A DNA stretch of 64,000 nt from Micromonospora antibiotica. Lineage in GTDB: Bacteria; Actinomycetota; Actinomycetes; Mycobacteriales; Micromonosporaceae. Position numbers and translations under genes: made by a program. Of this stretch, positions 21,587 to 35,999 are shown one piece after another (positions within the stretch are counted from its first letter, which is position 1; each line of letters starts with the position of its first letter). The stretch covers positions 248,001 through 312,000 of the forward strand of contig NZ_JAGFWR010000005.1 of assembly GCF_017599305.1 (NCBI RefSeq). Direction: 5' to 3'. The notes beneath the pieces were generated by a model. The model saw only the letters and a program-made list of their open reading frames with translations, searched no databases and had not been told where the DNA came from.

Positions 21587-22129
21587 GTGGCTATCAACAT
21601 CCTGACGGCGCGAACGGACAGCTGGCGTGGGCCGTGGCGTCTCGTCCTTGATTTCGCCTACCTGTGGCTCCCGCTTTGCGTCGTCCTCTGGCTTGGCTGG
21701 CGCTTCTTCGTACACCGTCGGACAGCGGTCACGTGGCGCGGGGCGGAAAGCCCATACCCCGGCCTCGCGCCGTTCACGGTGGAACGCGCGGGCGTGTTCT
21801 TTGGTCGTGACCGCGAGGCAAGGGACGTGCTGCACCGACTCGAGCGGTCGGGGCCGAGCCCGGCGACCCGGATAGTCGCCATTGTCGGCCCGTCGGGAGT
21901 GGGTAAATCATCACTGATCCGCGCCGGCATCCTCGCTCGACTGCCAAGGCGGTGGACCGTAGTAGGTCCGCTACGCCCGGCTGCCGATCCCTTCATGAGC
22001 CTCGCCGCAGCCTTGACGGGCGGCCAGGGGGCTGCACTGCAGACGGCGCGGCTACTGCGCGAAGAATCGGCAGAATCTGTCGCTGACCTGTGCAGACGCA
22101 ATCGTCGCCTTGCCATTCCCTGTTACTGA
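21587..22129 (+). pseudogene. Truncated STAND NTPase (nSTAND1-like) fragment
   Basis: A 180-aa remnant with one membrane segment (VLDFAYLWLPLCVVLWLGWR), then SPYPGLAPFTVERAGVFFGR and VAIVGPSGVGKSSLIRAG (Walker A). This is the beginning of the large WD40/TPR-associated novel-STAND NTPases, which are normally 700-1,300 aa. The coding pattern stops before any Walker B (DQFEE-type) motif, where the dispersed repeat copy 2 begins. On the left it starts 7 nt from the IS21 end, so the natural start may be gone. Most likely non-functional. Confidence 0.7.
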
Positions 22130-22170
22130 CCGTCGAATCTAGGCAGGGGTTTCGAGGGGTGAACGGGGGG
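22116..22170 (+). repeat. Dispersed repeat, copy 2 (degenerate)
   Basis: TTCCCTGTTACTGACCGTC followed by GGGGTTTCGAGGGGTGAACG aligns with copy 1 (TTCCTGTCACTGCTTGTCAC ... GGGTTTTCGGGGGGTAAACG). It overlaps the 3' end of the truncated STAND gene. The remaining 22171-22526 contains no convincing gene, only a short HTH-like remnant (VADLAWRLGF). Confidence 0.4.
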
Positions 22171-22526
22171 CACCGTTGACGGCTGCCGGGACGTCTGCGG
22201 CCCCGCCGGGGGGTGCCTTTGCAGGCGACCCATCATCCCGCCAAGGTCGCGTACCCGGAAGGTAGCTGACCTGGCCTGGAGGCTGGGCTTCGCCATCACT
22301 CCAGCGGACGCGGCGTAGTTGGCGTTCAACCGTCCGAGCAACGGGCGTCCTACGTGCCGGCACACCAGATCAACGAGCCGACCATGATCGGTCGATACCA
22401 GACAAGAGCTCCATGTCTCGACGCGGCCGAGGCGAAACTGGTTGCGCCGTCGGCCGCCGCCGACGATCCTGTAGAGCTGGCAACACGCCGGCCGTCCCAG
22501 CAGGGAATACGAGAGGCGAGGTCGGC

Positions 22527-23909
22527 GTGACCAGTCCAGGTTTCGATGAGCGGGCAGCAGCGGTCGAACGGCTCGTGCGAGCGGTGCTGGGCAGGCTCGC
22601 CAGCGAAGTGGGATCGCCTCGGATTGACCGCCTTTCGGACAATCAGCACTGGTGGCGCTACGGACAGGAGTCGTTCGTCGGTTTGCGCCCTCGCGCCTGG
22701 CTGATGCCGCCGGACGTCCCGATTGTCGGCTGGCTCGACCGTATTCCGGAGATGGGAGCCGTGCGTGCGTCCTACGCTGCGGACCCGGTGCTCGGTCCCC
22801 GAGTCGATGCGTTGCTGGGGACCATCGCCTCCCGAGCCGCTCGCAACTTCGACTGGCTGCTCATTCAGCACGTCATCGAGCCGATGGTGCTGGCCACCGG
22901 CAGCTACGAGTTTCGCGAGGATGTCTTCTGGCGGGTGTACGCACAGTTCGAGCTCGGCTTCGGGGCCGCCACGGTCACGATGGTGGAGTTTCTGCCGCTT
23001 AACGGATTCGAGTCGACGATGCCTCGTCTGGAACTGCCAGGAGGTCTGGTCCTGCAGCCGATGAGCGACGGGCAGATGGACCACGCGATCAACGCGCTCG
23101 CCGTGCCACGAGTCGCTGCTAGCGGTGTCAATGGGGTGCAGGTCTCGCGCCTGGATCAGTGGGCGCTAACCCGGTCGCGCGTCGTTGAGGTGGTCGCCGG
23201 CCATGTTGATGTGATGCCGCCTGACACGGATCAGTTTCCGACTCTGCTTGAGCCCGCGTCGTGGCTGATCACAGCGCTGCGGATCGTCTGCGGTGGTTCG
23301 GCCATCACCACCCGTCCGTTGTACGCGCAGACCGACGACGAGTTTCCCATCGTGCGCGGGGCGCGTGCCGCGCTGACATCGTTCGGTGCAGCTGACAACG
23401 CCCGCCCGACTCACCTGATGTCGCAGGACGCCGAGACCGTCCGCATCGTCTACCTGGCGCTCGGCCTACCCGCCGTTCAGCAGGACCGCTCCCTGCAGGT
23501 TGCAATCCGGCGCCTCGTCGCCGCCGGCACGAGAAACGACGACGGCGACCGGCTGATCGACTTGTCGATCGCCGCCGAGGCCCTGTTCATCCAGCGCGTG
23601 AACCTCGCCGGGGCGAGCAAGGGGAACAAGATCGCGGCCGGGGCCGCGCAGATGCTCAGCAACGACCCGCAGATTACTGCGGACCCGACTGAGATCAGCG
23701 ACTTCATGGCTGAGATCTACCGGGCACGCAACGCCGAGATCCATGGCGACGGCCAGCCCTACGGTCGGCTCCGGAGGCTCTCCGGGGTGCCGACCGAATC
23801 GCTGGCACTGGCCGTCGCCGAAGCGGAACTCGTGATGCGCCGCGCGGTGCACATGGTCTTGCAGGACCACGTCACGGCCCACGGGTTGGCCCTGGCGGCA
23901 CAGACCTGA
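22527..23909 (+). CDS. ApeA-like HEPN-domain protein
   Basis: A 460-aa soluble protein. The C-terminal 150 residues look like an Apea-like HEPN domain: DRLIDLSIAAEALFI (helix 1), KGNKIAAGAAQML, then FMAEIYRARNAEIHG, which contains the R-x4-H (R-N-A-E-I-H) catalytic motif of HEPN ribonucleases. The N-terminal part (about 1-320) is not recognised; in ApeA-type anti-phage proteins this region senses or regulates. GTG 22527 is chosen for its AGGCGAGG upstream; the in-frame GTG/ATG at 22413 would add 38 poorly conserved-looking residues. It stands alone between a broken STAND gene and an IS, so an abortive-infection RNase is inferred. Confidence 0.7.
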   Translation: MTSPGFDERAAAVERLVRAVLGRLASEVGSPRIDRLSDNQHWWRYGQESFVGLRPRAWLMPPDVPIVGWLDRIPEMGAVRASYAADPVLGPRVDALLGTIASRAARNFDWLLIQHVIEPMVLATGSYEFREDVFWRVYAQFELGFGAATVTMVEFLPLNGFESTMPRLELPGGLVLQPMSDGQMDHAINALAVPRVAASGVNGVQVSRLDQWALTRSRVVEVVAGHVDVMPPDTDQFPTLLEPASWLITALRIVCGGSAITTRPLYAQTDDEFPIVRGARAALTSFGAADNARPTHLMSQDAETVRIVYLALGLPAVQQDRSLQVAIRRLVAAGTRNDDGDRLIDLSIAAEALFIQRVNLAGASKGNKIAAGAAQMLSNDPQITADPTEISDFMAEIYRARNAEIHGDGQPYGRLRRLSGVPTESLALAVAEAELVMRRAVHMVLQDHVTAHGLALAAQT

Positions 23910-25966: not shown

Positions 25967-26641
25967 TCAGCCTCGTCGCTGCGGTGGAATCGGTGGTCGC
26001 CGGCGCGGCATCAAGTCGAGCGGTCCTCTAATGTACTCACCCGGGTCAATTCCATCTCTCTGCAGCTCCAGGAAGCCGTTGGCGAGCTGCCTTGCGGACG
26101 CTCGCTCTTCGGCAACGAGATGTCGAGCCAGATCGACTAGGGTTGCGGCCGACACTCCTAGTTGCTTGGCGACCCGACGGGCGTCGTTATCGTGGGAAAG
26201 AAGGGTGTGGTCGTAGCGGCTCGCGTGCAGCAGGCATTGAGCCTCACCCAGGTGCTCTCTTGGATCGGACGAGACGGCCTGACCAGGCCGTCGCTTGCTT
26301 GCCGCTAGAGCCTTTAGGCTGTCCCAAATCGGAGTGAGGTCTTGGTCATCGGCGGCCGTAAAGGAAATGGTGGCAGTCAGCCAGGACGCTCCCCTTCCGC
26401 TGTATGCTCTCGCCGCCAGAGCTACAGGGCCTGAGCCTCTTGACTGATGCGCAAGCTCGGCGCGAACCGCCTCTACCCAGTGAGTCTTGCCATGACAGCG
26501 AGCCGTGACGATATCGCGGAGCAGCCTGCCTGCCCTCGCCCCTAAGCAAAGCAAAGGCCCCGTGTCTGCTACGTAATTCGTGTCGGCGCCAAGGTCAGGA
26601 GCATGCCGGGAGATAGCCTGACCTTGACTCACCGCTGACAC
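25967..26641 (-). CDS. PIN-domain protein, last gene of the methyltransferase/GHKL/receiver operon
   Basis: A 224-aa protein. The PIN-type acidic residues are seen as Asp26 in YVADTGPLL, Glu in HLGEAQCLL (about 132) and Asp in LLSHDNDARRV (about 149-151), followed by a helical C terminus with GVSAATLVDLARHLV. PIN domains are Mg-dependent ribonucleases, often toxins or defence effectors. It starts at GTG 26641, overlapping the receiver gene by 13 nt, so production is coupled. No separate antitoxin gene is adjacent; the preceding receiver-domain protein is the natural candidate for controlling it. Residues 190-224 are basic and Pro-rich. Confidence 0.7.
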   Translation of the reverse strand: MSAVSQGQAISRHAPDLGADTNYVADTGPLLCLGARAGRLLRDIVTARCHGKTHWVEAVRAELAHQSRGSGPVALAARAYSGRGASWLTATISFTAADDQDLTPIWDSLKALAASKRRPGQAVSSDPREHLGEAQCLLHASRYDHTLLSHDNDARRVAKQLGVSAATLVDLARHLVAEERASARQLANGFLELQRDGIDPGEYIRGPLDLMPRRRPPIPPQRRG

Positions 26642-27921
26642 GTCCCACCTTCTGGACGAATGGCCTTCGTAGGCAGGGTCTCCTCGTGAATAGGAGGACT
26701 ATACTGGCCCTCGTTCGGCGCGCCACTATCGTCTTGATGAATGCGCCAACGGTCGGTCGACACGACGAGAGCCAGCAGTTCCGGATCAACATATTCTCCG
26801 GTCAGGACATCCCGTGCCGCCCAAGCGTCGTCGGCGTAGGGCGGCCAGTCGTCGGGCTGTAGACGGACAGCCGAGGCCGCGCTGAGGGGAACAGATAGCG
26901 AAGAATAGTCGGCTTTGACTCCGACGACAGGGTCTTCGACCTTGATCGCTTTGAGAGGGCGGCCGTGCGAAGCTGCCGCCGCGGCCGCGATGGCCTGGAT
27001 GTGGTCCGAGCCGTTCTCGGGGTTAGCCTCCAGCAGTTGTTCCACGAGATGGCTCAATCCTGCCCGCCACCACCTCTCGCCGAGAAATTCGCCGAGCGGA
27101 CCACCGTATCTCAACTCATCGAGCCGTACAGCAAGCGGACTTTCGCTGCTCAGGACATCCTCGATGGAGGCCATGTCGAGTCCTAGCGTTACCGCCAAGT
27201 GTGTCCGGTCGAGTAGAAACGTGGGGAAGGGAAGGATCCTCTGCAGGAACCACCGCAGCCAAGCTAAGCCGGCGGTCCTCTCTGCGACAACATGTTGGGG
27301 CGGCCGGCACTGTTCAATCTGCCAGCGGGCGTCCTCGGCCCAGGCAACGTCGGGAAGTGCGAGCCAATGTAGACCGGGATCCTGGCTACCAGGACCCCAA
27401 TTCGCCGGCAACGTACTGGTGGCGCGAGCGACGGCAGCAACGCGACGGGCCGGCGACGGCATGTTGGGCAGCGGCTCTTCGCCCTTATTGAAAACCCATT
27501 CCAGATTGTACTGTCGAGCAAGGAGATACTCGCGCGCAGCCTTAGGGAGGCCGACGCCCAGCCTATCCAGCTCGCCTGTTCGAAGCATGATCGCTACTGG
27601 AGCGGGGCGTGACTGCGTATCGGAGCGAATACCTTCGACATGCGAGCGGAGTACAGCTGAGAGTGCGAGTCCGTCGGGCACACTAAGCGCGAGCGGAAGA
27701 CCGTGCTGATCACGACCCGGCCATGTGTCGAGATATTGATCCAACACCAGGGTTGTGGCCCTGTTTAGCAGCTCAGGTTCAAGATCATCCGGCTTGAGCG
27801 AGACGGCCTCGACTCCTTGATCACGGATAAGCTCGGCGAAGTCGTCCTGATCTTCATCATCGATGATGATCACCAAAGGTTCACGTGCACCATCGAAATT
27901 CGCAGGGAGGGGTTTAGTCAT
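26629..27921 (-). CDS. Receiver-domain (response-regulator-like) protein of unknown output
   Basis: A 430-aa protein. Residues 15-150 form a CheY-like receiver with all key positions: acidic pair Asp21-Asp22 (VIIIDDED), phospho-acceptor Asp61 (LVLDQYL), Thr115 (IMLRTGEL) and Lys146 (VFNKGEE). The long beta3-beta4 connection is unusual. Residues 160-430 match no output domain I know; they are Trp- and Pro-rich (GLHWLALPDVAWAEDARWQI, ERWWRAGLSHLVEQLLEANP) and contain no HTH. ATG 27921 overlaps the upstream stop as ATGA and has GGAG 6 nt before it. Inferred partner of the histidine-kinase-like module encoded just upstream; the large C-terminal domain may bind the PIN protein or the methyltransferase. 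Confidence 0.7.
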   Translation of the reverse strand: MTKPLPANFDGAREPLVIIIDDEDQDDFAELIRDQGVEAVSLKPDDLEPELLNRATTLVLDQYLDTWPGRDQHGLPLALSVPDGLALSAVLRSHVEGIRSDTQSRPAPVAIMLRTGELDRLGVGLPKAAREYLLARQYNLEWVFNKGEEPLPNMPSPARRVAAVARATSTLPANWGPGSQDPGLHWLALPDVAWAEDARWQIEQCRPPQHVVAERTAGLAWLRWFLQRILPFPTFLLDRTHLAVTLGLDMASIEDVLSSESPLAVRLDELRYGGPLGEFLGERWWRAGLSHLVEQLLEANPENGSDHIQAIAAAAAASHGRPLKAIKVEDPVVGVKADYSSLSVPLSAASAVRLQPDDWPPYADDAWAARDVLTGEYVDPELLALVVSTDRWRIHQDDSGAPNEGQYSPPIHEETLPTKAIRPEGGTCQR

Positions 27922-30380
27922 CGACGCTCCTGAGGGTCGGGGAGATCGACACGGATGCTAGTAGCATAGTCCGGCGGAGGCTGAACGAATTGAATAGAGC
28001 CTCGGTAATCCTCAACCAGCGCTCGGGTGATTGGTAGACCCAGCCCGAGCCCCTGGCCTAATACTTCATTGACCTCGACCGTCGTGCTTTCGAAGGGCAG
28101 GAACCAGCGCTCTGCATCCTCGAGGTCAATGGCCGTGCCGGTGTTGTGGATAAAGATCGTGGCACCTCGGACGCCAAGCGGTTTTCCGGTGATGTGGACA
28201 ACGCCTGGCGATCCCGCGTTCTTGACGGCGTTAGTGAGCAAGTTGGTGAGCATCACGCCGACTTCTGCAGGAAACATAGGGGGTGTCTTCAGATCTGCCG
28301 GCAGAGCATCCTCGATTGTCACCTCCAGACGCACAACTTGATCAGCAAGGAGCCTGCGTACGACATCAAGCCGGTCGGTTACGAGCACCCGTGATCGCCT
28401 ACGGCGAGGATCGGCCACGAGAACGTCTGTAAGGTAGCTGCTCTGCCGAGCCAGGGTATGAGTCAAATCATCGAGCGCGCGGATAACGCGCCGTACGCGT
28501 GCGGCTTGTTGCCGGCTGAGCCCTGGATCTGAGGCGAGCGGATCAAGCAGCTCCTTTACGGTCCGCGATTGCCCCAGCATTCCATTAATATCATGCACGA
28601 AAGCCCCGAGCTGAAGGCCGACGCTGGCGAGTATTCGAAGCTCCGGCTGGACTTCACGCAGGCGAACAAGTTCGGACTCGGCCACCTCGAATCCCGCGGC
28701 AATTGCTTCCGCTGTCACGGCATCTAGCACGGGAGTCGTTGCCGTTCGCAGCGCGGTCACTGCTCGATGCGCTTCCTCGACGACGCGCCTAAACCTTGCC
28801 GGGCGCACAGAGGGTTGCAGGGCGTCAGCGGACCGCGCCTCGGTTCGGGTATCGACTGTAGAGCCGGCTCCGCCGCTCCCGTCTTGCTCGTTCCTCTCGT
28901 TGGCCTGACTGTCCGATTTTGATCCAGGTTCCGCTTCGAGCTCTTGTGGGGCCGGCTCGTCCGGGTGGGTAGCTTGATGAGCAGGGTTCGGGAATGGCCT
29001 GCTGGTCTTCACTGCCGCATGCTGGGCGGCGGACTCGGCCTCCTGGCGTTGTCGCTGGCGTTCCCCGATGCGAAGAAGCACCGACCTGCGGACGCGTACG
29101 CTCAGGCGGATGCCAGTTTGAACCAGATCTACAAGAGCTTCGTATGCTGAGTCGGGAACGAACCCCTCTCGGTTAACCAGACTGCGGAGTCCCCCAGCAC
29201 CTTCTTCGGTCAGAAAAACAGCGCCAAAATAGCCCGTATTGCCGGTTGCAACAAGGCCTTCTTTTCGATCGACTTCGATTTGATCACTGGCCTCAGCGTC
29301 GATATCGATCGCGTAGAATCTTGGACCACCTCTATAGTCACGGTCGATACCGAGCCAGTCATCGCCATACTCTCCGTACGGCAAAACCCTAAAGCCCTCT
29401 AAATACACTCGCACACCGCTGGTGGAGCGTACGAAACCGGATAGCGGACCGCGTCGGGTGCTCGCGTTCGGCATCGTCAGAACGCGAGCCTGAAAGCGCG
29501 GGCGACCTACTAGCGAGGCTCTTCTCTGAAATCGGTATGTCTGAGCCTCCGGTTCAGCCTCCGCATACCGGCGCAGAGGAGTAATCTGGTATTGGACCTC
29601 TTCCGTTGTAGCGTCGATCTCCAACAGCCATTCAAAATCATCTCCGGCACGCTGCCATAGATCATCACCTATGTCAAGGTCCCCGGTGAGTCGTACACGA
29701 AACCCAGGATCCCTATCGTGGCCCGTATCCCGCACAATTGGGTGCCGGATTAGTGGTGGAGATGCGGGGGCGGCAGACAGCCACGCGGGATCGGTCAGGG
29801 CGCGTGGAGGCTGCGCAGACCTCAATTCCGTAACGAACGTAGCCAACTGCCGGTCAGTCCAGGAGCTCCGCAATCGCCGAAGCTCCAACGCCGTCCCATG
29901 CGCCACGCCGGGAGAAGACGGCAAACCTACAACATTCAGCCCTTCAGCAAGATCATCCAGGTTCTCCTGCTTCTCGATGAGGTCCCAGTCCAAGACAGCT
30001 CGGACTCCGACAGAATCCGGTTCCCCCCGCTGCTGATCGTCTTTGATCCGAGGAACACTCGTGACACCCAGCCAGGCCGCAAGCTTGTGCGCCGCCAACC
30101 GGCCGATGCCCTTCTGGCCCGTATAGCGGCGACGATAGTTCGGCGACCGCCTGTCGTCCGCTTCCTTCACGCGACTAGCGATACGCAGGAAGGCCGACTC
30201 GAACCGCTGCCGCGACATGCCATTTCCATCGTCTACGACCCGCAGAACTGCCCCTGACTTCCCAAGGTCAACCGCCTCAACGGTCACCTGCGATGCATCA
30301 GCATCGTAGGCGTTCTTAATAAGTTCGAGGAGTGCGGTACTTTCGCGACCGACGAGCAGTTCGCCGAGTTCGCGCAGCAA
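27918..30380 (-). CDS. Double-GHKL protein: Hsp90-like ATPase fused to a histidine-kinase-like module
   Basis: A protein of about 820 aa. The N-terminal GHKL module has the N box ELIKNAYDAD (19-28), G1 VVDDGNGM (about 52-60) and lid GQKGIGRLAAHK (about 92). It is followed by an S5/middle-like region (to about 430) and a Gln/Glu/Ser-rich linker. The second module has an H box LQLGAFVHDINGM (His near 593), N box LLTNAVKNAG (about 715), FLPFES and G box GQGLGLGLPITR (about 775), which is a full cytoplasmic histidine kinase. No membrane segment or PAS domain is present. TTG 30380 is the first standard start. An upstream in-frame ACG (30407), 9 nt after GGGAGG, would add GFSFDTH, which looks homologous to relatives. 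The downstream receiver is its likely phospho-acceptor. Confidence 0.78.
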   Translation of the reverse strand: MLRELGELLVGRESTALLELIKNAYDADASQVTVEAVDLGKSGAVLRVVDDGNGMSRQRFESAFLRIASRVKEADDRRSPNYRRRYTGQKGIGRLAAHKLAAWLGVTSVPRIKDDQQRGEPDSVGVRAVLDWDLIEKQENLDDLAEGLNVVGLPSSPGVAHGTALELRRLRSSWTDRQLATFVTELRSAQPPRALTDPAWLSAAPASPPLIRHPIVRDTGHDRDPGFRVRLTGDLDIGDDLWQRAGDDFEWLLEIDATTEEVQYQITPLRRYAEAEPEAQTYRFQRRASLVGRPRFQARVLTMPNASTRRGPLSGFVRSTSGVRVYLEGFRVLPYGEYGDDWLGIDRDYRGGPRFYAIDIDAEASDQIEVDRKEGLVATGNTGYFGAVFLTEEGAGGLRSLVNREGFVPDSAYEALVDLVQTGIRLSVRVRRSVLLRIGERQRQRQEAESAAQHAAVKTSRPFPNPAHQATHPDEPAPQELEAEPGSKSDSQANERNEQDGSGGAGSTVDTRTEARSADALQPSVRPARFRRVVEEAHRAVTALRTATTPVLDAVTAEAIAAGFEVAESELVRLREVQPELRILASVGLQLGAFVHDINGMLGQSRTVKELLDPLASDPGLSRQQAARVRRVIRALDDLTHTLARQSSYLTDVLVADPRRRRSRVLVTDRLDVVRRLLADQVVRLEVTIEDALPADLKTPPMFPAEVGVMLTNLLTNAVKNAGSPGVVHITGKPLGVRGATIFIHNTGTAIDLEDAERWFLPFESTTVEVNEVLGQGLGLGLPITRALVEDYRGSIQFVQPPPDYATSIRVDLPDPQERR

Positions 30381-30468
30381 GTGCGTGTCGAAGCTGAATC
30401 CAGCCGTGGCCGCTCACCTCCCGGGTTAGTTGAGAGTCACGCTACCAAGATCGCAAAGGCAGCATAGT

Positions 30469-32244
30469 TCAGCTATGAGGGGTCTCCAACCCCTGTGGCA
30501 CCCTCAGCCAACGAAGCGACTTAGGTTCGATCTTGAGCGACCCTCCGTGGTAGTGACGTGCAAGCTCCGCAAGCGGCCGCTGGCCATCCTCTGAGCGTAG
30601 CCAGCGGGCCAGGGCTTCCTTGCTCCAGGGCGCGTCCTCGCTCAAGTAGATTCCGTACAGGTTGTTGCTGGCCACGGCCGCCGCGTCGTTGATGATCACT
30701 CGGTGAAAAGGCTTACCTACGGGGACCAAGAACAAGTCCGGCGCTTGCACCGGTTCTACCTTGTACCAGTTTGTCGGCCGGTGGCTCGTCAAGTGTCTGG
30801 TATCGATGCCCAGTTCCCGGCCACGGTCGAGGTATGCCGCCACTCGCTCGTCGGTCTCCGCCAGCTCTGATCCGTTCAAATCCAAGAGCCAGCGGGGCAG
30901 GCCGGCAAGGCCGAGGGCGTCATGGGCTCGCACATCAAGGCGAACACCTGTGCAGTGGGCCGGCTTCACGAGTGCACGGCGCATACTATTGCTCGGCAGA
31001 CGGTGCTCGTCGCGTTGGGCATCTGAGACAAAGAAGAACTCACTCGCACCGGTAGCTACGCCGCGACGAATCTTCGCCACCTCCCCAAGCGCCACGGTGG
31101 CCAACACCGTGCGCGGCGCAGGACGACGAAGAAGACTGGTGAACGTAGCCGGACAGCTTCCGGTCCTGTCGGGCTCGACTGATCGCCCTGGAGCCACATC
31201 AGCTCGCGGGTCATCGGCAGGCAAGTCGATATGTTGGGCCACGAAGGGCTGGTCAACACGCTTTACCGGCCCTATGAGTAGTACCATTGCGGTTACCTGA
31301 GTCCCCGGAAAGACCTCTAGCTCGCTCGGGAAGAAGTGCGCCTCGACGCGCCTGCGGCGAGCTTCCCACAGCCATTGGCGTATCTCCCGGCCGTATCGGG
31401 CTTCGCACCAGGATGCTGGGAGAAGGAAACAGACTGCGTCCTTCGGGCCGAGCGCATTAAGGGTGGCGGCCAGAAAGTAAGCGGAAAGGCCAGCTAGCCC
31501 ACTCGTTATAAGATCCCCTGCAATCTTTCGCGCCGCTTGCTTATCCTTCTCCGTCATCCGCTGATGTCGCGTATACGGCGGATTTCCCAGAATTAGACGC
31601 GGACTTTCCAGCCCCGGCCATTCTTCCTGCAACCACGCGAGATAGTCGGCGGGGGCGAACGTTAATCTGCCTACTTTTGGCTGGCTCTTAGCCTCCCGCA
31701 CAGCAGCCCGCGCGGCAAGCAAGCCAAGCGTAACGACGTTAACGTCGACAGCCGTAACTGACGCCCGCCGCCAGGCTGAGAGCGCAGCCAAGGTAAATGC
31801 TCCAACACCCGCACCAGGATCAACCACGTATCGCGGAGGCCCCGCAAGCAATCGTCGTGATTGGTTGACCATGTACCGCACAATGGGTGCGGGTGTGAAG
31901 AAAGTGCCGAGCTGACGGCGATTTACGCCGCTGACTATATATTCATAGGCGATTGCAAGTACGTCTTCGTCACCTTTTTCTAGGGAGTCGCGCACCGCCG
32001 TTGCCACTGATTCATCCACGACGACGTCGGCATCTCTAGCCCAAGACGCGAGCGGCTCGGGCCACGCCTCGACCATCGACGGCGCTAGAACGCGGGCCAG
32101 AGCGCCGAGTGCGGCGAGGCGGCTCAGTTCGGGACCTTCGGCGCCCGGCACCCGATCAGGAGTTAGTGGAGCCGCTTGGCTCGCGTCCGCCCACCGGATG
32201 AGATCGATTGCTGACTGGGGAAGGTTACCAGGGAGGCGGCGCAT
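30469..32244 (-). CDS. N6-adenine DNA methyltransferase (Eco57I/TaqI-like gamma class)
   Basis: A 591-aa protein. An N-terminal helical region leads to TFFTPAPIVRYMV, SAM-binding motif I VVDPGAGVGAFTL (about 137-149) and catalytic motif IV LILGNPPYTRHQR (NPPY near 219). The C-terminal half (about 330-591) resembles a target-recognition domain (VAKIRRGVATGASEFFFVS). No PD-(D/E)xK or other nuclease motif is seen, so it is not an obvious type IIG enzyme. ATG 32244 has GGGAG upstream. It is the first gene of a four-gene operon, with an 88-nt gap to the GHKL gene and overlaps thereafter. Probably marks self DNA for the defence module, though an epigenetic role alone is possible. Confidence 0.82.
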   Translation of the reverse strand: MRRLPGNLPQSAIDLIRWADASQAAPLTPDRVPGAEGPELSRLAALGALARVLAPSMVEAWPEPLASWARDADVVVDESVATAVRDSLEKGDEDVLAIAYEYIVSGVNRRQLGTFFTPAPIVRYMVNQSRRLLAGPPRYVVDPGAGVGAFTLAALSAWRRASVTAVDVNVVTLGLLAARAAVREAKSQPKVGRLTFAPADYLAWLQEEWPGLESPRLILGNPPYTRHQRMTEKDKQAARKIAGDLITSGLAGLSAYFLAATLNALGPKDAVCFLLPASWCEARYGREIRQWLWEARRRRVEAHFFPSELEVFPGTQVTAMVLLIGPVKRVDQPFVAQHIDLPADDPRADVAPGRSVEPDRTGSCPATFTSLLRRPAPRTVLATVALGEVAKIRRGVATGASEFFFVSDAQRDEHRLPSNSMRRALVKPAHCTGVRLDVRAHDALGLAGLPRWLLDLNGSELAETDERVAAYLDRGRELGIDTRHLTSHRPTNWYKVEPVQAPDLFLVPVGKPFHRVIINDAAAVASNNLYGIYLSEDAPWSKEALARWLRSEDGQRPLAELARHYHGGSLKIEPKSLRWLRVPQGLETPHS

Positions 32245-32297
32245 GGGACTAGTCTCCCGTATTACGTAGTGTGAGCATCCCCATCCTCCATCCACAT

Positions 32298-33210: not shown

Positions 33211-34443
33211 TCACATTCGTTTTACAGTCCCCTGCGCCGTGACGAACTCCGTCACAGACGCCGCCTTGCGGGCGTGGGGCTGCATACGGCGGGCCAGCCC
33301 GGCGAAGCGTAGAGAGAGCCTGCCGGAACGGATGTCGCCTGCTGCCTCCGTCGCTGCGAGCGCGACGCGACCGGCTTCGTCGAACTCGCCGGCATACAGC
33401 AGCGCTTCGGCCAGGCTGAGCTGGTCGAGGACGCGGTTGCGGGCCAGAGACACGCCGCGTAAGTCCAGGGCCTGGTTGAGGCGTTCGATGGCCGCGTCGG
33501 CGTACCGGTGGTTGGTACGGGCCAGGTCGGTGTAGGCGGCACCGGAGAGGCTGTAAAGCTCCGCTTCGGTGACGTGCTGCGCTGCCCAGTTTGGCGTACC
33601 CGTGTTGTCGACACGCGTGAACGCATCCTCGGCGTCGCCCACAGCACGACGCACCATGTCGGCGTCACCGACCTGCGCATACGCCCAGGCTCGGATGCAC
33701 GACTGGTTGGCGCGGTCGCCCGGGGTGAACAGGTCACCGGCTCGCTTTGCGGCTGCGTCCAGCAGCGACAGCGTCTTCTCGGGGCGGCGCAGTTCGATGT
33801 TGTGGCCCGCCATCCGGACCACGGTATGGCCGCCGAGCGCGGTGTTGCCGGCGGCGGTGGCGGCGGACAGGGCGAGCCAGGCGTGCTCGTCTGCACTGCG
33901 GTGGTCACCGATGTCGCGGGCGATGTAGGCGCCGAGCCCGGCGAGGTCGGCGATCGCGACGAGCAGCGCGGTTCGGACCTTCGGCTCGGAGGCAGCGGTG
34001 TGCATGGCGGCGGCCCGATCGAGCAACTGCGCGGCCGGCTTTTGAACGGCGGCTCCGCCGTGGCGGGACACCCAGCCTCGGTAGACGGCGGTGGTGTCGG
34101 TGATGTCGGTGACGTGGTCTATGCCGACTCTGCGGGGCGTTTCCGCCGAGGGGAGGGGCCAGCCGGCTACCGCCATGCCGGCCGCGCTGAGGGCCTGAAG
34201 TACCGTTCGCCGCCGCACGTCCTCACCGCCTTCCTGTTCTTCGCTCGCCAGGGCGAACAGTGCGCCGTTGGCACCGAGGGCCTGGTCGAGGCTGGCCGTC
34301 ATGTCCGGGCCGGGCCGTCGGTGGCCGTTCTCGACCTTGCTCAGGTACCCCTGGTCGCAGGGGACCAGCTCGGCGAGCTGGTGCAGGGAGAGGTTGGCTT
34401 CCAGCCTCCGGCGGCGCAGCTCGGTACGGAAATTGTCGCTCAC
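33211..34443 (-). CDS. XRE-family regulator with TPR-like C-terminal domain
   Basis: A 410-aa protein. The N-terminal helix-turn-helix (residues 5-60, LSLHQLAELVPCDQGYLSKV) is of the XRE/Cro type. A linker follows, then about 300 residues of helical repeats (DLAGLGAYIARDIGDHRSAD, YAQVGDADMVRRAVGDAEDA, LSLAEALLYAGEFDEAGRVA) as in TPR-bearing actinobacterial regulators that respond to a peptide or small ligand. GTG 34443 has AAGGAG about 9 nt upstream; the in-frame ATG at 34482 does not. It is divergent from the pterin gene cluster beginning at 34607, which it probably controls. Confidence 0.85.
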   Translation of the reverse strand: MSDNFRTELRRRRLEANLSLHQLAELVPCDQGYLSKVENGHRRPGPDMTASLDQALGANGALFALASEEQEGGEDVRRRTVLQALSAAGMAVAGWPLPSAETPRRVGIDHVTDITDTTAVYRGWVSRHGGAAVQKPAAQLLDRAAAMHTAASEPKVRTALLVAIADLAGLGAYIARDIGDHRSADEHAWLALSAATAAGNTALGGHTVVRMAGHNIELRRPEKTLSLLDAAAKRAGDLFTPGDRANQSCIRAWAYAQVGDADMVRRAVGDAEDAFTRVDNTGTPNWAAQHVTEAELYSLSGAAYTDLARTNHRYADAAIERLNQALDLRGVSLARNRVLDQLSLAEALLYAGEFDEAGRVALAATEAAGDIRSGRLSLRFAGLARRMQPHARKAASVTEFVTAQGTVKRM

Positions 34444-34606
34444 GGTGCTTCGCTCCTTGGCGATATGCCTCGCTGCTGGCATGGGGCAACCCCGTGGGGA
34501 TCTGATCGCGCACTCGTACGGTCAATCTACACAGCCCGCTACACCCTGATTGCCTCATGTGACCGCGGGGTGGATGGGGTGAACGGTCTCGACCCGGGAG
34601 TGCAGA

Positions 34607-34960
34607 GTGGATCTGATCGAAGTGACGGCGCTACGGCTCCGCTGCATCATCGGCGTACGCGCCGAGGAACGTCGTGACCTCAGCGACCTGGTCATCGACC
34701 TGGCCATCGGCACCGAAGCACGGCCGGCTGCCCTCGTCGACGACGTCACGGAGGTGTGGAACTACCGCACCGCCACCAAGGGCGTCATCGCCCTGGTCCA
34801 GCAGTCCGAGTACCACACGATCGAGGCGCTGGCAGAGGCGATCGCGACGCACCTGGTGGACGATCACCACGCCCCGTACGCCAAGGTGCGGGTGTCCAAG
34901 CCCGGCGCGCTGCGGTTCGCCGACGACGTCGCCGTGGTCATCGAGCGGGGCCACCGGTGA
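34607..34960 (+). CDS. FolB-like dihydroneopterin aldolase/epimerase
   Basis: A 117-aa protein, full length for FolB/FolX. It has the tunnelling-fold pattern: MDLIEVTALRLRCIIGVRAE at the start, VWNYRTATKGVIALVQQSEY, H-T-I-E-A-L-A-E-A-I with the active-site region, and VRVSKPGALRFADDVAVVIE with the Lys of the K-P-x-A motif. FolB converts 7,8-dihydroneopterin to 6-hydroxymethyl-dihydropterin; FolX epimerises the triphosphate. GTG 34607 has GGGAG 6 nt upstream. It opens a seven-gene set in which every junction except that into the DUF2797 and P-loop genes overlaps by 4 nt or so. The chromosomal folate copy is presumably elsewhere. Confidence 0.85.
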   Translation: MDLIEVTALRLRCIIGVRAEERRDLSDLVIDLAIGTEARPAALVDDVTEVWNYRTATKGVIALVQQSEYHTIEALAEAIATHLVDDHHAPYAKVRVSKPGALRFADDVAVVIERGHR

Positions 34961-35544
34961 CCGCCCCGGCCGTCGTCCGGCCGGACCGGGACCTGGTCGC
35001 CGCCGAGGAAGCCGCCCGCGCGTTCCTGGCCGCCCTGGGCTGGGACCTCAACACCCCGTCGACACGGGACACCCCCCACAGGATGGCGAAGGCGTATGCC
35101 GATCTGGCTAGCCCGCGTCAGTTTACCCCTACCGCCTTCGACAACGAGGAAGGCTGCGACCAGCTGATCGTGCAGCAGGCGATCCCGTTCGCCAGCGTGT
35201 GCGAGCACCACTGTCTGCCGTTCGTCGGCAGCGTGGACTTCGGCTACTTGCCGGGTAGCCAGATCATCGGTCTGTCGAAGTTGGCCCGTGGCGTTGAGCT
35301 GTTCGCTCGGGGTCCGCAGGTGCAGGAGCGGTTGACCAGCCAGATTGCGAACTGGCTGGTGGAGACTCTCCGGCCGAAGGGTGTCGGGGTGGTGGTACGC
35401 GCGGAGCACATGTGCATGCGGCTGCGTGGTGCACAGGTATCCGGCACGTTGACGATCACGTCGGCGCTGCGCGGGCTTGTGCTCGACGACCCGCGTACCC
35501 GGTCGGAGTTCTACTCCTTCGTCAACGCGGGGGCCGGCCGGTGA
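34957..35544 (+). CDS. folE: GTP cyclohydrolase I (FolE type IA)
   Basis: A 195-aa protein, the usual length for FolE. It carries the zinc/catalytic block SVCEHHCLPFVGSVDFGYLP (Cys near 83, His 85-86) and a later Cys in AEHMCMRLRGAQ (about 151), plus the G-L-S-K-L-A-R motif. Zinc ligands are complete, so it should be the Zn-dependent IA enzyme making dihydroneopterin triphosphate from GTP, the first pterin or deazapurine step. GTG 34957 overlaps the FolB-like stop (GTGA). FolE supplies the substrate for the PTPS-like protein encoded next. Confidence 0.93.
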   Translation: MTAPAVVRPDRDLVAAEEAARAFLAALGWDLNTPSTRDTPHRMAKAYADLASPRQFTPTAFDNEEGCDQLIVQQAIPFASVCEHHCLPFVGSVDFGYLPGSQIIGLSKLARGVELFARGPQVQERLTSQIANWLVETLRPKGVGVVVRAEHMCMRLRGAQVSGTLTITSALRGLVLDDPRTRSEFYSFVNAGAGR

Positions 35545-35999
35545 CCGCTGTCATCGTGCTGCGCGGCGGTGAGTTCAGCTTCTGCGCCGCGCACGCCGGC
35601 CTACACGCCGACGGCTACGAGCCCTTGCACGGGCACACCTTCGTAGTCACGCTGCGGCTGGCCGGCCAGGCTGACGACAACGGCATGGTGACCGACTTCG
35701 GGCCCGTGAAGACGACCCTGCGGAGGGTTATCGCACCGCTGCGACGGCGGACCCTGGTCGCCGGCCGGGCCTCGGGCGTCGACCTGAGCGTGCCCGACCA
35801 GGTGCGGTTCGGCGACTACACCCTGCCCGCCCTCGCGGTGGCCGTCCTGCCGGTGGTTAACACCACCACGGAGGCCATCGCCGGTCACCTCCTCGACCAG
35901 GTGCTGCTGCACGCCCCGGTGCCCGGACTGCACTGGGCGGAGCTGGACCTCGCGGAGGCCCCGGACGTCTCCGCCACCGTACGCAGGCTGCTCGCATGA
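35541..35999 (+). CDS. 6-pyruvoyl-tetrahydropterin synthase/QueD family protein (Glu-type)
   Basis: A 152-aa protein with the tunnelling-fold PTPS pattern: FSFCAAHAGLH (first zinc His), E-P-L-H-G-H-T-F (second and third His), VTDFGPVKTTLRRVI and NTTTEAIAGHLLDQV. The QueD catalytic Cys (C-x-x-L-HGH) is missing: Tyr stands there and a Glu lies three residues before the first His of HGH, as in PTPS-III-type proteins that make 6-hydroxymethyl-dihydropterin. So a pterin rather than queuosine role is favoured (inference). GTG 35541 overlaps the folE stop. Confidence 0.8.
   Translation: MTAVIVLRGGEFSFCAAHAGLHADGYEPLHGHTFVVTLRLAGQADDNGMVTDFGPVKTTLRRVIAPLRRRTLVAGRASGVDLSVPDQVRFGDYTLPALAVAVLPVVNTTTEAIAGHLLDQVLLHAPVPGLHWAELDLAEAPDVSATVRRLLA

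Follow-up and report, generated by a model that had tools for sequence, protein, structure and literature searches.

The four-gene operon and its genomic setting

The analyzed window, a stretch of 64,000 nucleotides of Micromonospora antibiotica DNA, contains four real genes on its minus strand, all of which have open reading frames (Table 1). An earlier note on this DNA had described the genes as joined by overlaps; this applies to the kinase and receiver genes (4 nt) and to the receiver and PIN genes (13 nt), but the methyltransferase and kinase genes are separated by a gap of 61-88 nt, depending on the start. The neighborhood had been said to contain HEPN, STAND, and IS genes. While an IS21 pair, another transposase, and an nSTAND1 fragment do lie nearby, the HEPN label of 22413-23909 had no Pfam support. 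The GC content of the operon was 60.8%, compared with 70.6% and 69.8% in the flanks, and the gene set, apparently acquired, lies in a low-GC Micromonospora island beside IS elements. Because the regulator adjoining the operon occurs only in its own genome (1 of 31), no empty site was seen.

Table 1. Genes of the operon, with positions in the window
Gene product	Position	Strand	Basis and remarks
Eco57I-like N6-adenine DNA methyltransferase	30469-32295	-	608 aa from the first GTG; the ATG at 32244 was the start in the earlier note
Double-GHKL kinase (HATPase_c_3, His596 helix, HATPase_c)	27918-30407	-	Pfam; first listed start TTG 30380; ACG 30407-30405 proposed
Response-regulator-like protein (receiver domain, about residues 13-180, and output domain without recognized family)	26629-27921	-	Profile, predicted fold, conserved sites
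PIN-like nuclease, predicted effector	25967-26641	-	Conserved acids, weak database matches

The gene set is rare (3 of 298 genomes of the order, one of the three weak, and 2 of 394 genomes of the class). Related cassettes occur on plasmids; 33 of 72,556 plasmid records had relatives of the kinase, two of them over most of its length, and a homologue of the PIN protein occurred in a single record, from Clavibacter. Three of 50,697 phage records had homologues of the kinase, all partial.

Conserved features of the four proteins

The methyltransferase matched Pfam Eco57I and N6_Mtase, both above the cut-off, and PADLOC MTase_II (E 1e-40), and its motif I (D159-P-G-A-G) and N238-P-P-Y were invariant in all six PIN-type cassettes. 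No cognate endonuclease domain was recognized among the four proteins of the window.

Pfam found HATPase_c_3 and HATPase_c in the kinase, which is about 830 aa long. A resemblance to restriction enzymes of the BbrUII/HgiDII family was seen in its GHKL part (E 2.7e-19, well short of the family cut-off), and PADLOC REase_II models matched this part only. The histidine that had been placed in a "His593-region" is of the phospho-acceptor type and does not vary among the 90 kinases aligned, although its number is 596 when counted from the TTG. The N-terminal GHKL motifs are fully retained, as are the His, N, and G2 boxes. In the G1 box of the C-terminal ATPase, however, Asn replaces Asp and the second Gly is lost in all 16 kinases of the window clade, so kinase activity is uncertain; the change weakens the case for a kinase step without excluding it. 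A standard start codon is absent from the expected place. After the in-frame TGA at 30416, the first ATG, GTG, or TTG is the TTG at 30380, already inside the conserved N-terminus; we propose the ACG at 30407-30405, behind GGAGGTGA, as the best-placed candidate.

Although the receiver protein had no Pfam match at E ≤ 1, its domain was recognized in other ways. The best PDB sequence matches by profile were response regulators (E 9e-5), and the predicted fold (pLDDT 88) matched receiver domains at Z of about 12 over residues 13-180, while Foldseek returned nothing below E 0.001 (best E 0.0037). That the receiver is intact, as had been claimed, was borne out in 14 near relatives, all of which have D21, D22, D61, and K146 and either Thr or Ser at position 115. 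For the output domain, no known family was found; the best PDB sequence match, to an HTH-type regulator, was not significant (E 1), and the fold-search lists for the whole protein were taken up by the receiver domain.

The PIN-like protein has the conserved acidic quartet of a PIN-domain nuclease, with D26, E62, and E133 in 6 of 6 and Asp or Glu at position 151, likewise in 6 of 6. Sequence profiles gave weak PDB matches to 2mdt (E 0.022) and 3i8o (E 0.64), which we take to be PIN structures. PADLOC PDC-S70 matched the window protein weakly (E 0.005) and that of locus L012 better (E 2e-7), but not that of L004. Pfam gave no PIN match; its single hit, below the threshold, was to HTH_50 (E 0.02), a family that is unrelated. 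RNA is the substrate of most PIN nucleases, and PIN domains are common toxins.

Distribution of the cassette and its last gene

The earlier note had made its reading depend on conserved co-localization of the four families; six Actinomycetes loci, one of them the window, contain all four together, in five cases in the same order. Kinase, receiver, and N6 methylase co-localize far more widely than the four-gene set. With the kinase as the only bait, the search led to a broader cassette, present in both bacteria and archaea, that consists of the kinase, the receiver, X1 (a protein of about 240 residues without known fold), and an N6 methyltransferase. Among 60 kinase-bait loci, a receiver gene lay directly downstream in 52 by profile, an N6 methylase was encoded within -3 to +4 genes of the kinase in 48, and the third gene was by profile X1 in 43 and PIN in four. 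These four, the window, and L092 make up the six PIN cassettes; where Actinomycetes carry a kinase of the window's clade, PIN stands in the place of X1. Two of the 52 receivers (L031 and L067) are cut by contig ends, and simple ORF calling missed the receiver genes of L004 (annotated) and L016 (open in one frame). The count leaves aside L008 (the same locus as L013), L037 (whose contig ends in the kinase), and the tree's other branch (23 loci), and it does not include the window, L092, or L114. We call the 23 loci "C5-type" as a shorthand for tree position, because a motif test found a cytosine-methylase-like neighbor in only 11 of them; an N6-type match was found in one (L087).

A distant homology between PIN and X1 was rejected (profile comparison probability 0.2%). 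The X1 members tested gave no hits with Pfam, PADLOC, NCBIfam, or PHROGs. Foldseek found nothing in the PDB for the X1 model at E ≤ 0.001 (best E 0.54), a missing match not being equivalent to a new fold, and a second fold comparison gave no convincing PDB match (best Z 3.3). Found by profile in 43 of 60 cassettes and lacking a library or convincing structural match, X1 can therefore be named as a candidate new effector. A GIY-YIG gene is annotated after X1 in L005, and a Vsr-like gene was recognized by eye in L021.

Possible function and relation to known systems

We tentatively favor, at somewhat less than an even chance, the reading that the operon is a methylation-linked phosphorelay defense cassette, which is related to restriction-modification (R-M), moves horizontally, and carries an exchangeable effector; its defense role, phosphotransfer, and PIN activity are what we infer. 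The adenine methyltransferase would, as its family suggests, mark a DNA motif as self, and the N-terminal MORC/MutL-like GHKL module of the kinase would probably sense DNA or else the methyltransferase's state. Once triggered, the kinase would pass the phosphoryl group on its His596 to the receiver's Asp61, both residues being conserved, and the output domain may then free or activate the product of the last gene. In the window, this product, the PIN nuclease, would cut RNA and halt the growth of the infected cell. Because most relatives have X1, which is unrelated to PIN, in the effector position, the relay appears to be constant and the effector exchangeable. PADLOC had no match for the receiver protein or X1 and matched the kinase in its GHKL part only, so no defense-system library backs this role. 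It is possible, though we hold it with less confidence, that the cassettes form a widespread and distinct class of immunity that combines self-marking by adenine methylation with an intracellular His-Asp phosphorelay, the receiver switching an effector that would usually be X1 (toxic or nuclease-like, with a novel fold) and, in Actinomycetes, a PIN RNase. To our knowledge, little is known of phosphorelays in bacterial immunity. The cassette would link one to DNA self-marking in bacteria and archaea, with the relay kept while the effector changes, and would provide a way to test the target of a MORC-like GHKL sensor and the control of a nuclease by a receiver.

The N6 methylase at 48 of the 60 loci would also suit a regulated R-M system, in which PIN (or X1) cuts DNA as the partner of the methylase, and the kinase and receiver control the timing of gene expression or nuclease loading instead of growth arrest. 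The GIY-YIG and Vsr-like genes of L005 and L021 and the resemblance of the kinase to BbrUII/HgiDII and REase_II point in this direction. However, no restriction-enzyme domain beyond the shared GHKL part was recognized in the four proteins, which also speaks against an ordinary or type IIG R-M system; moreover, the usual targets of PIN nucleases are RNA and no DNA-binding protein matched the output domain significantly (best E 1), and we consider a regulated R-M system unlikely.

The G1 box, changed throughout the clade (16 of 16), together with the intact N-terminal motifs, could instead mean that the kinase, its C-terminal ATPase having degenerated, acts as a MutL/MORC-like DNA clamp gated by ATP, onto which the receiver docks as a switch with no His-Asp transfer; paraMORC families occur in R-M operons according to the available text of PMC2292703. 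A mere dock would need neither His596, conserved in 90 of 90 kinases, nor the phospho-site, conserved in 14 of 14 receivers, which makes such a clamp distinctly doubtful. As for an addiction module that maintains a plasmid or island, with a PIN toxin restrained by the other proteins and the cell dying once the operon is lost, the available parts of two papers treat PIN domains as toxins (PMC13092281) and discuss post-segregational killing by R-M systems (PMC8011034), and the plasmid-borne kinase relatives are consistent with it. Yet a methylase and two signaling proteins exceed what such a module needs, and X1 cassettes outnumber PIN cassettes by 43 to 4; we regard this explanation as very improbable.

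A kinase, a receiver, and an effector are encoded in one operon in Detocs, as in the window. The Detocs effector is a purine nucleoside phosphorylase, according to the available part of PMC10952713, whereas the window has PIN and a methylase; since Pfam found no such domain in the four proteins and a PIN-like protein takes the effector place, identity with Detocs was rejected, in agreement with the earlier note. The likeness to a predicted, unvalidated DefensePredictor candidate consists of the abbreviations HATPase and REC in a legend in the available part of PMC13092281. With the paraMORC/MORC proteins in R-M operons (Iyer et al., 2008; PMC2292703), the kinase shares an N-terminal GHKL ATPase and an operon with a methylase and a nuclease, but the accessible text of that paper names neither a receiver nor a histidine-kinase half.

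A close parallel is provided by the HEF_HK/Response_reg_2 pairs beside cytosine (C5) methylases (Bellieny-Rabelo et al., 2021; PMC8011034). In the available part of that paper, HEF_HK kinases are R-M-associated soluble proteins with an N-terminal HATPase_c_3, a DHp-like His helix, and a C-terminal HATPase_c, linked to receiver-like neighbors in 91.6% of 644 regions, and cytosine methylases and Vsr/HNH nucleases are stressed. The window kinase has the same arrangement and adjoins a receiver-like gene; unlike the systems described there, its branch has an N6 methylase and X1 or PIN. It is also shorter than the nine PF19191 (HEF_HK) kinases examined (about 990-1080 aa). At E ≤ 1, neither PF19191 in the kinase nor PF19192 (Response_reg_2) in the receiver protein was matched, and none of 14 genomes, its own included, exceeded the PF19191 cut-off; membership was thus rejected. 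Among 12 PF19191 loci, L105, L107, L111, L112, and L114 entered the tree, and L115 (over the cut-off only with in-frame neighbors) and L116 (under the cut-off) were unused, being membrane sensor kinase-like by eye. L114 passes the PF19191 cut-off yet groups with the N6-type kinases; by this bridge, the HEF_HK and window families are related. The suggestion that the system may be undescribed stands in part: a 2021 paper (PMC8011034, as far as its available part goes) already reported double-GHKL kinases that have receiver-like neighbors and lie beside R-M genes, but the literature searched contained no account of the branch in which an N6 methylase accompanies X1 or PIN, and the operon appears to represent an as yet undescribed branch within a family of restriction-like systems that has received little study.

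Gene content and setting of the cassette

On the minus strand of the 64-kb stretch, in a host genome of 7.56 Mb, we found the four genes that the earlier note had read as an operon, namely a methyltransferase, a kinase, a receiver protein and a PIN-like protein, with corrections of detail. The operon has a GC content of 60.8%, compared with 70.6% and 69.8% in its flanks, and its immediate neighbors include an IS21 pair, a further transposase and a fragment of nSTAND1; because of these features, it looks like an acquired island. Third-position GC in the operon is 0.61-0.64. The IS21 pair adjoins a truncated nSTAND1 gene, and the 498-aa protein of the same region, previously labeled HEPN, had no Pfam match to bear out that label. 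On the other side lies a cluster of pterin or deazapurine type, in which a strain-specific XRE-type regulator (1/31 relatives) stands beside FolB, with GTP-cyclohydrolase-I-like and PTPS/QueD-like genes (by eye) nearby.

Coordinates of the cassette and of other features discussed
Feature	Locus	Coordinates	Strand
Methyltransferase	window	30469-32295	-
Kinase	window	27918-30407	-
Receiver protein	window	26629-27921	-
PIN-like protein	window	25967-26641	-
Truncated nSTAND1 gene (beside the IS21 pair), 498-aa protein	window	21587-23909	
XRE-type regulator, FolB and neighbors	window	33211-35999	
X1	L015	13430-14188	
Cytosine methylase, kinase, 457-aa receiver-like protein, Vsr-like protein (all but the methylase identified by eye or local profile)	L073	8706-13865	

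The methyltransferase belongs to the Eco57I/N6 family, and its motif I and NPPY are invariant in all six PIN-type cassettes. The kinase, numbered here from the TTG at 30380, carries two GHKL domains. Positions 30380-30417 hold no standard start codon upstream of its conserved N-terminus, and the ACG at 30407-30405, preceded by a strong GGAGGTGA, could serve as a rare start, unless the sequence is in error here.

Searches of Pfam, PADLOC, NCBIfam and PHROGs gave no match to the receiver protein. Among PDB sequences, its profile picked out response regulators, the best at E 9e-5, and its predicted structure (pLDDT 88) matches receiver domains (Z about 12); Foldseek alone returned nothing below E 0.001 for this model. 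D21, D22, D61 and K146 are invariant in 14/14 near relatives, and a broader set of 47 diverse relatives keeps D22 and D61 without exception and K146 in at least 90%. A Tyr is invariant in the output half, which also contains an Arg-Trp-Trp region; no recognized family was found for this half. Database support for the PIN-like protein, whose PIN fold is putative, was weak; the PIN-site acids are present in all six cassettes. Across 298 genomes of the order, its profile scored 296-300 bits in the two cassette carriers versus at most 48 bits in 16 others, and thus this PIN version goes with the cassette.

Distribution and the variable third gene

Using the kinase alone as bait, we scanned genome contigs, took the best 80 among the matches listed (L010-L089), added four plasmid loci (L004-L007) and labeled the neighbors with local profiles. 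Counts are based on 60 loci, leaving out 23 loci on another branch of the kinase tree, one duplicate and one truncated locus. Among the matches listed, the receiver gene lies immediately 3' of the kinase in 52/60 loci by profile; L004 and L016, whose receiver frame is intact, fall outside this count since the ORF caller missed them. A 398-440-residue gene, receiver-like by eye only, takes this position in L045, L070, L071, L074 and L084, and an unrelated gene does so in L035. Again among the matches listed, an N6 methylase occurs within -3 to +4 genes in 48/60 loci, and the third gene by profile is X1 in 43/60 and PIN in 4/60. An X1-like His/Gln motif was seen by eye in 194-277-residue third genes of L006, L045, L070, L071, L074, L080 and L084. 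X1 lies further downstream in L016, a methylase takes third place in L019, and the contigs of L014, L031, L035 and L067 run out shortly thereafter. Among the matches listed, the genome loci that fall outside the other branch number 57; they span 14 named phyla and include two archaeal loci.

The six PIN cassettes (window, L004, L010, L012, L013 and L092) are all from Actinomycetes, L092 being assigned at class level ("same class" as the window), and L013 is on a Micromonospora halophytica contig. The order methylase-kinase-receiver-PIN holds in five of them; in L010 the methylase follows PIN. L070 and L071, also from Actinomycetes, belong to a more distant kinase group and lack PIN. The cassette is rare: with its own genome counted, it was found in 3/298 genomes of the order (one a weak 59-residue match) and 2/394 of the class, two samples that overlap.

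X1 proteins form a conserved family, are about 200-290 aa long (L015 and 40 further loci, alignment A7) and share the consensus W-H-x-D...H-P-x-Y-H-x-Q...P-R-x-x-H-x-P-M-D; a single His, H151 in L015, never varies (41/41). No family was found in Pfam (L015 and the X1-like L006 protein), PADLOC and NCBIfam (L015, L024, L005 and L006) or PHROGs (L015 and L024). The X1 profile had no significant match among PDB sequences, its model (pLDDT 88) had no convincing match among PDB structures, and profile comparison found X1 and PIN unrelated. After X1 lies an annotated GIY-YIG gene in L005, and a Vsr-like gene (by eye) follows it in L021.

Kinase phylogeny and the proposed relay

A quick maximum-likelihood tree built from 90 kinases, its root drawn only at the midpoint, pairs the window kinase with that of the Clavibacter plasmid locus L004 (support 100); both fall in a clade of 16 rows (support 100) made up of six PIN cassettes, eight X1 cassettes, L019 and the truncated L014. 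Because the PIN cassettes share no single supported branch, one and several PIN/X1 exchanges are indistinguishable. The opposite side of the tree holds the 23 other-branch kinases, with a cytosine-methylase-like neighbor by motif in 11/23 loci, and four kinases of PF19191 (HEF_HK). The kinase of L073, where a cytosine methylase, the kinase, a receiver-like protein and a Vsr-like protein are consecutive, gave no PF19191 match at E<=1; therefore, that family is wider than its Pfam model.

Alignment of the 90 kinases showed that the N-terminal ATP-site motifs are retained and that His596 is present in all (16/16 window clade, 47/47 other N6-type, 23/23 other branch and 4/4 PF19191), followed by Glu or Asp in 87/90. 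In the G1 box of the C-terminal HATPase_c domain (residues 746-750), Asn replaces Asp in 16/16 kinases of the window clade and in 2/4 PF19191 rows; Asp is retained in 46/46 gap-free other N6-type rows and 23/23 other-branch rows. The second Gly of this box is also missing in 16/16 kinases of the window clade, and the N-terminal GHKL site is intact. Asn at that position occurs in some active kinase families.

The gene set, motifs, receiver fold, conservation and signs of mobility are established by our analysis. We propose that the methylase would mark self, and that the MORC/MutL-like N-terminus of the kinase may sense foreign or unmarked DNA or methylase failure. Phosphoryl transfer from His596 to Asp61 could then allow the receiver output domain to activate PIN, which would halt phage growth through RNA cleavage. 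PIN and X1 are read as effectors mainly because the relay is fixed while the third gene changes; what chiefly calls for caution is the altered G1 box.

Comparison with known kinase/receiver systems

Bellieny-Rabelo et al. (2021; PMC8011034) described kinases of the same architecture with a receiver-like neighbor (91.6% linkage in 644 regions) and associated them with R-M; the window cassette shares both the architecture and the neighbor, and its proteins were unmatched by the models of that study. PF19191 exceeded its cut-off in 11/349 genomes of the phylum around genome G308. One of these kinases, L114, matched PF19191 at 28.3 bits (cut-off 24.1), scored 287.8 bits with our kinase profile, on which nine other PF19191 kinases reached 101-121 bits, and was placed inside the N6-type group; thus, PF19191 and N6-type kinases look like branches of one superfamily. 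In a figure legend, DefensePredictor (2026; PMC13092281) lists HATPase and REC for a candidate that is so far unvalidated and may or may not be related to this branch. Since the 2021 architecture is shared and no description of the N6-methylase/X1/PIN branch was found in the literature searched (main texts, few of them from subscription journals), we regard the cassette as a variant within the known kinase/receiver/R-M theme.
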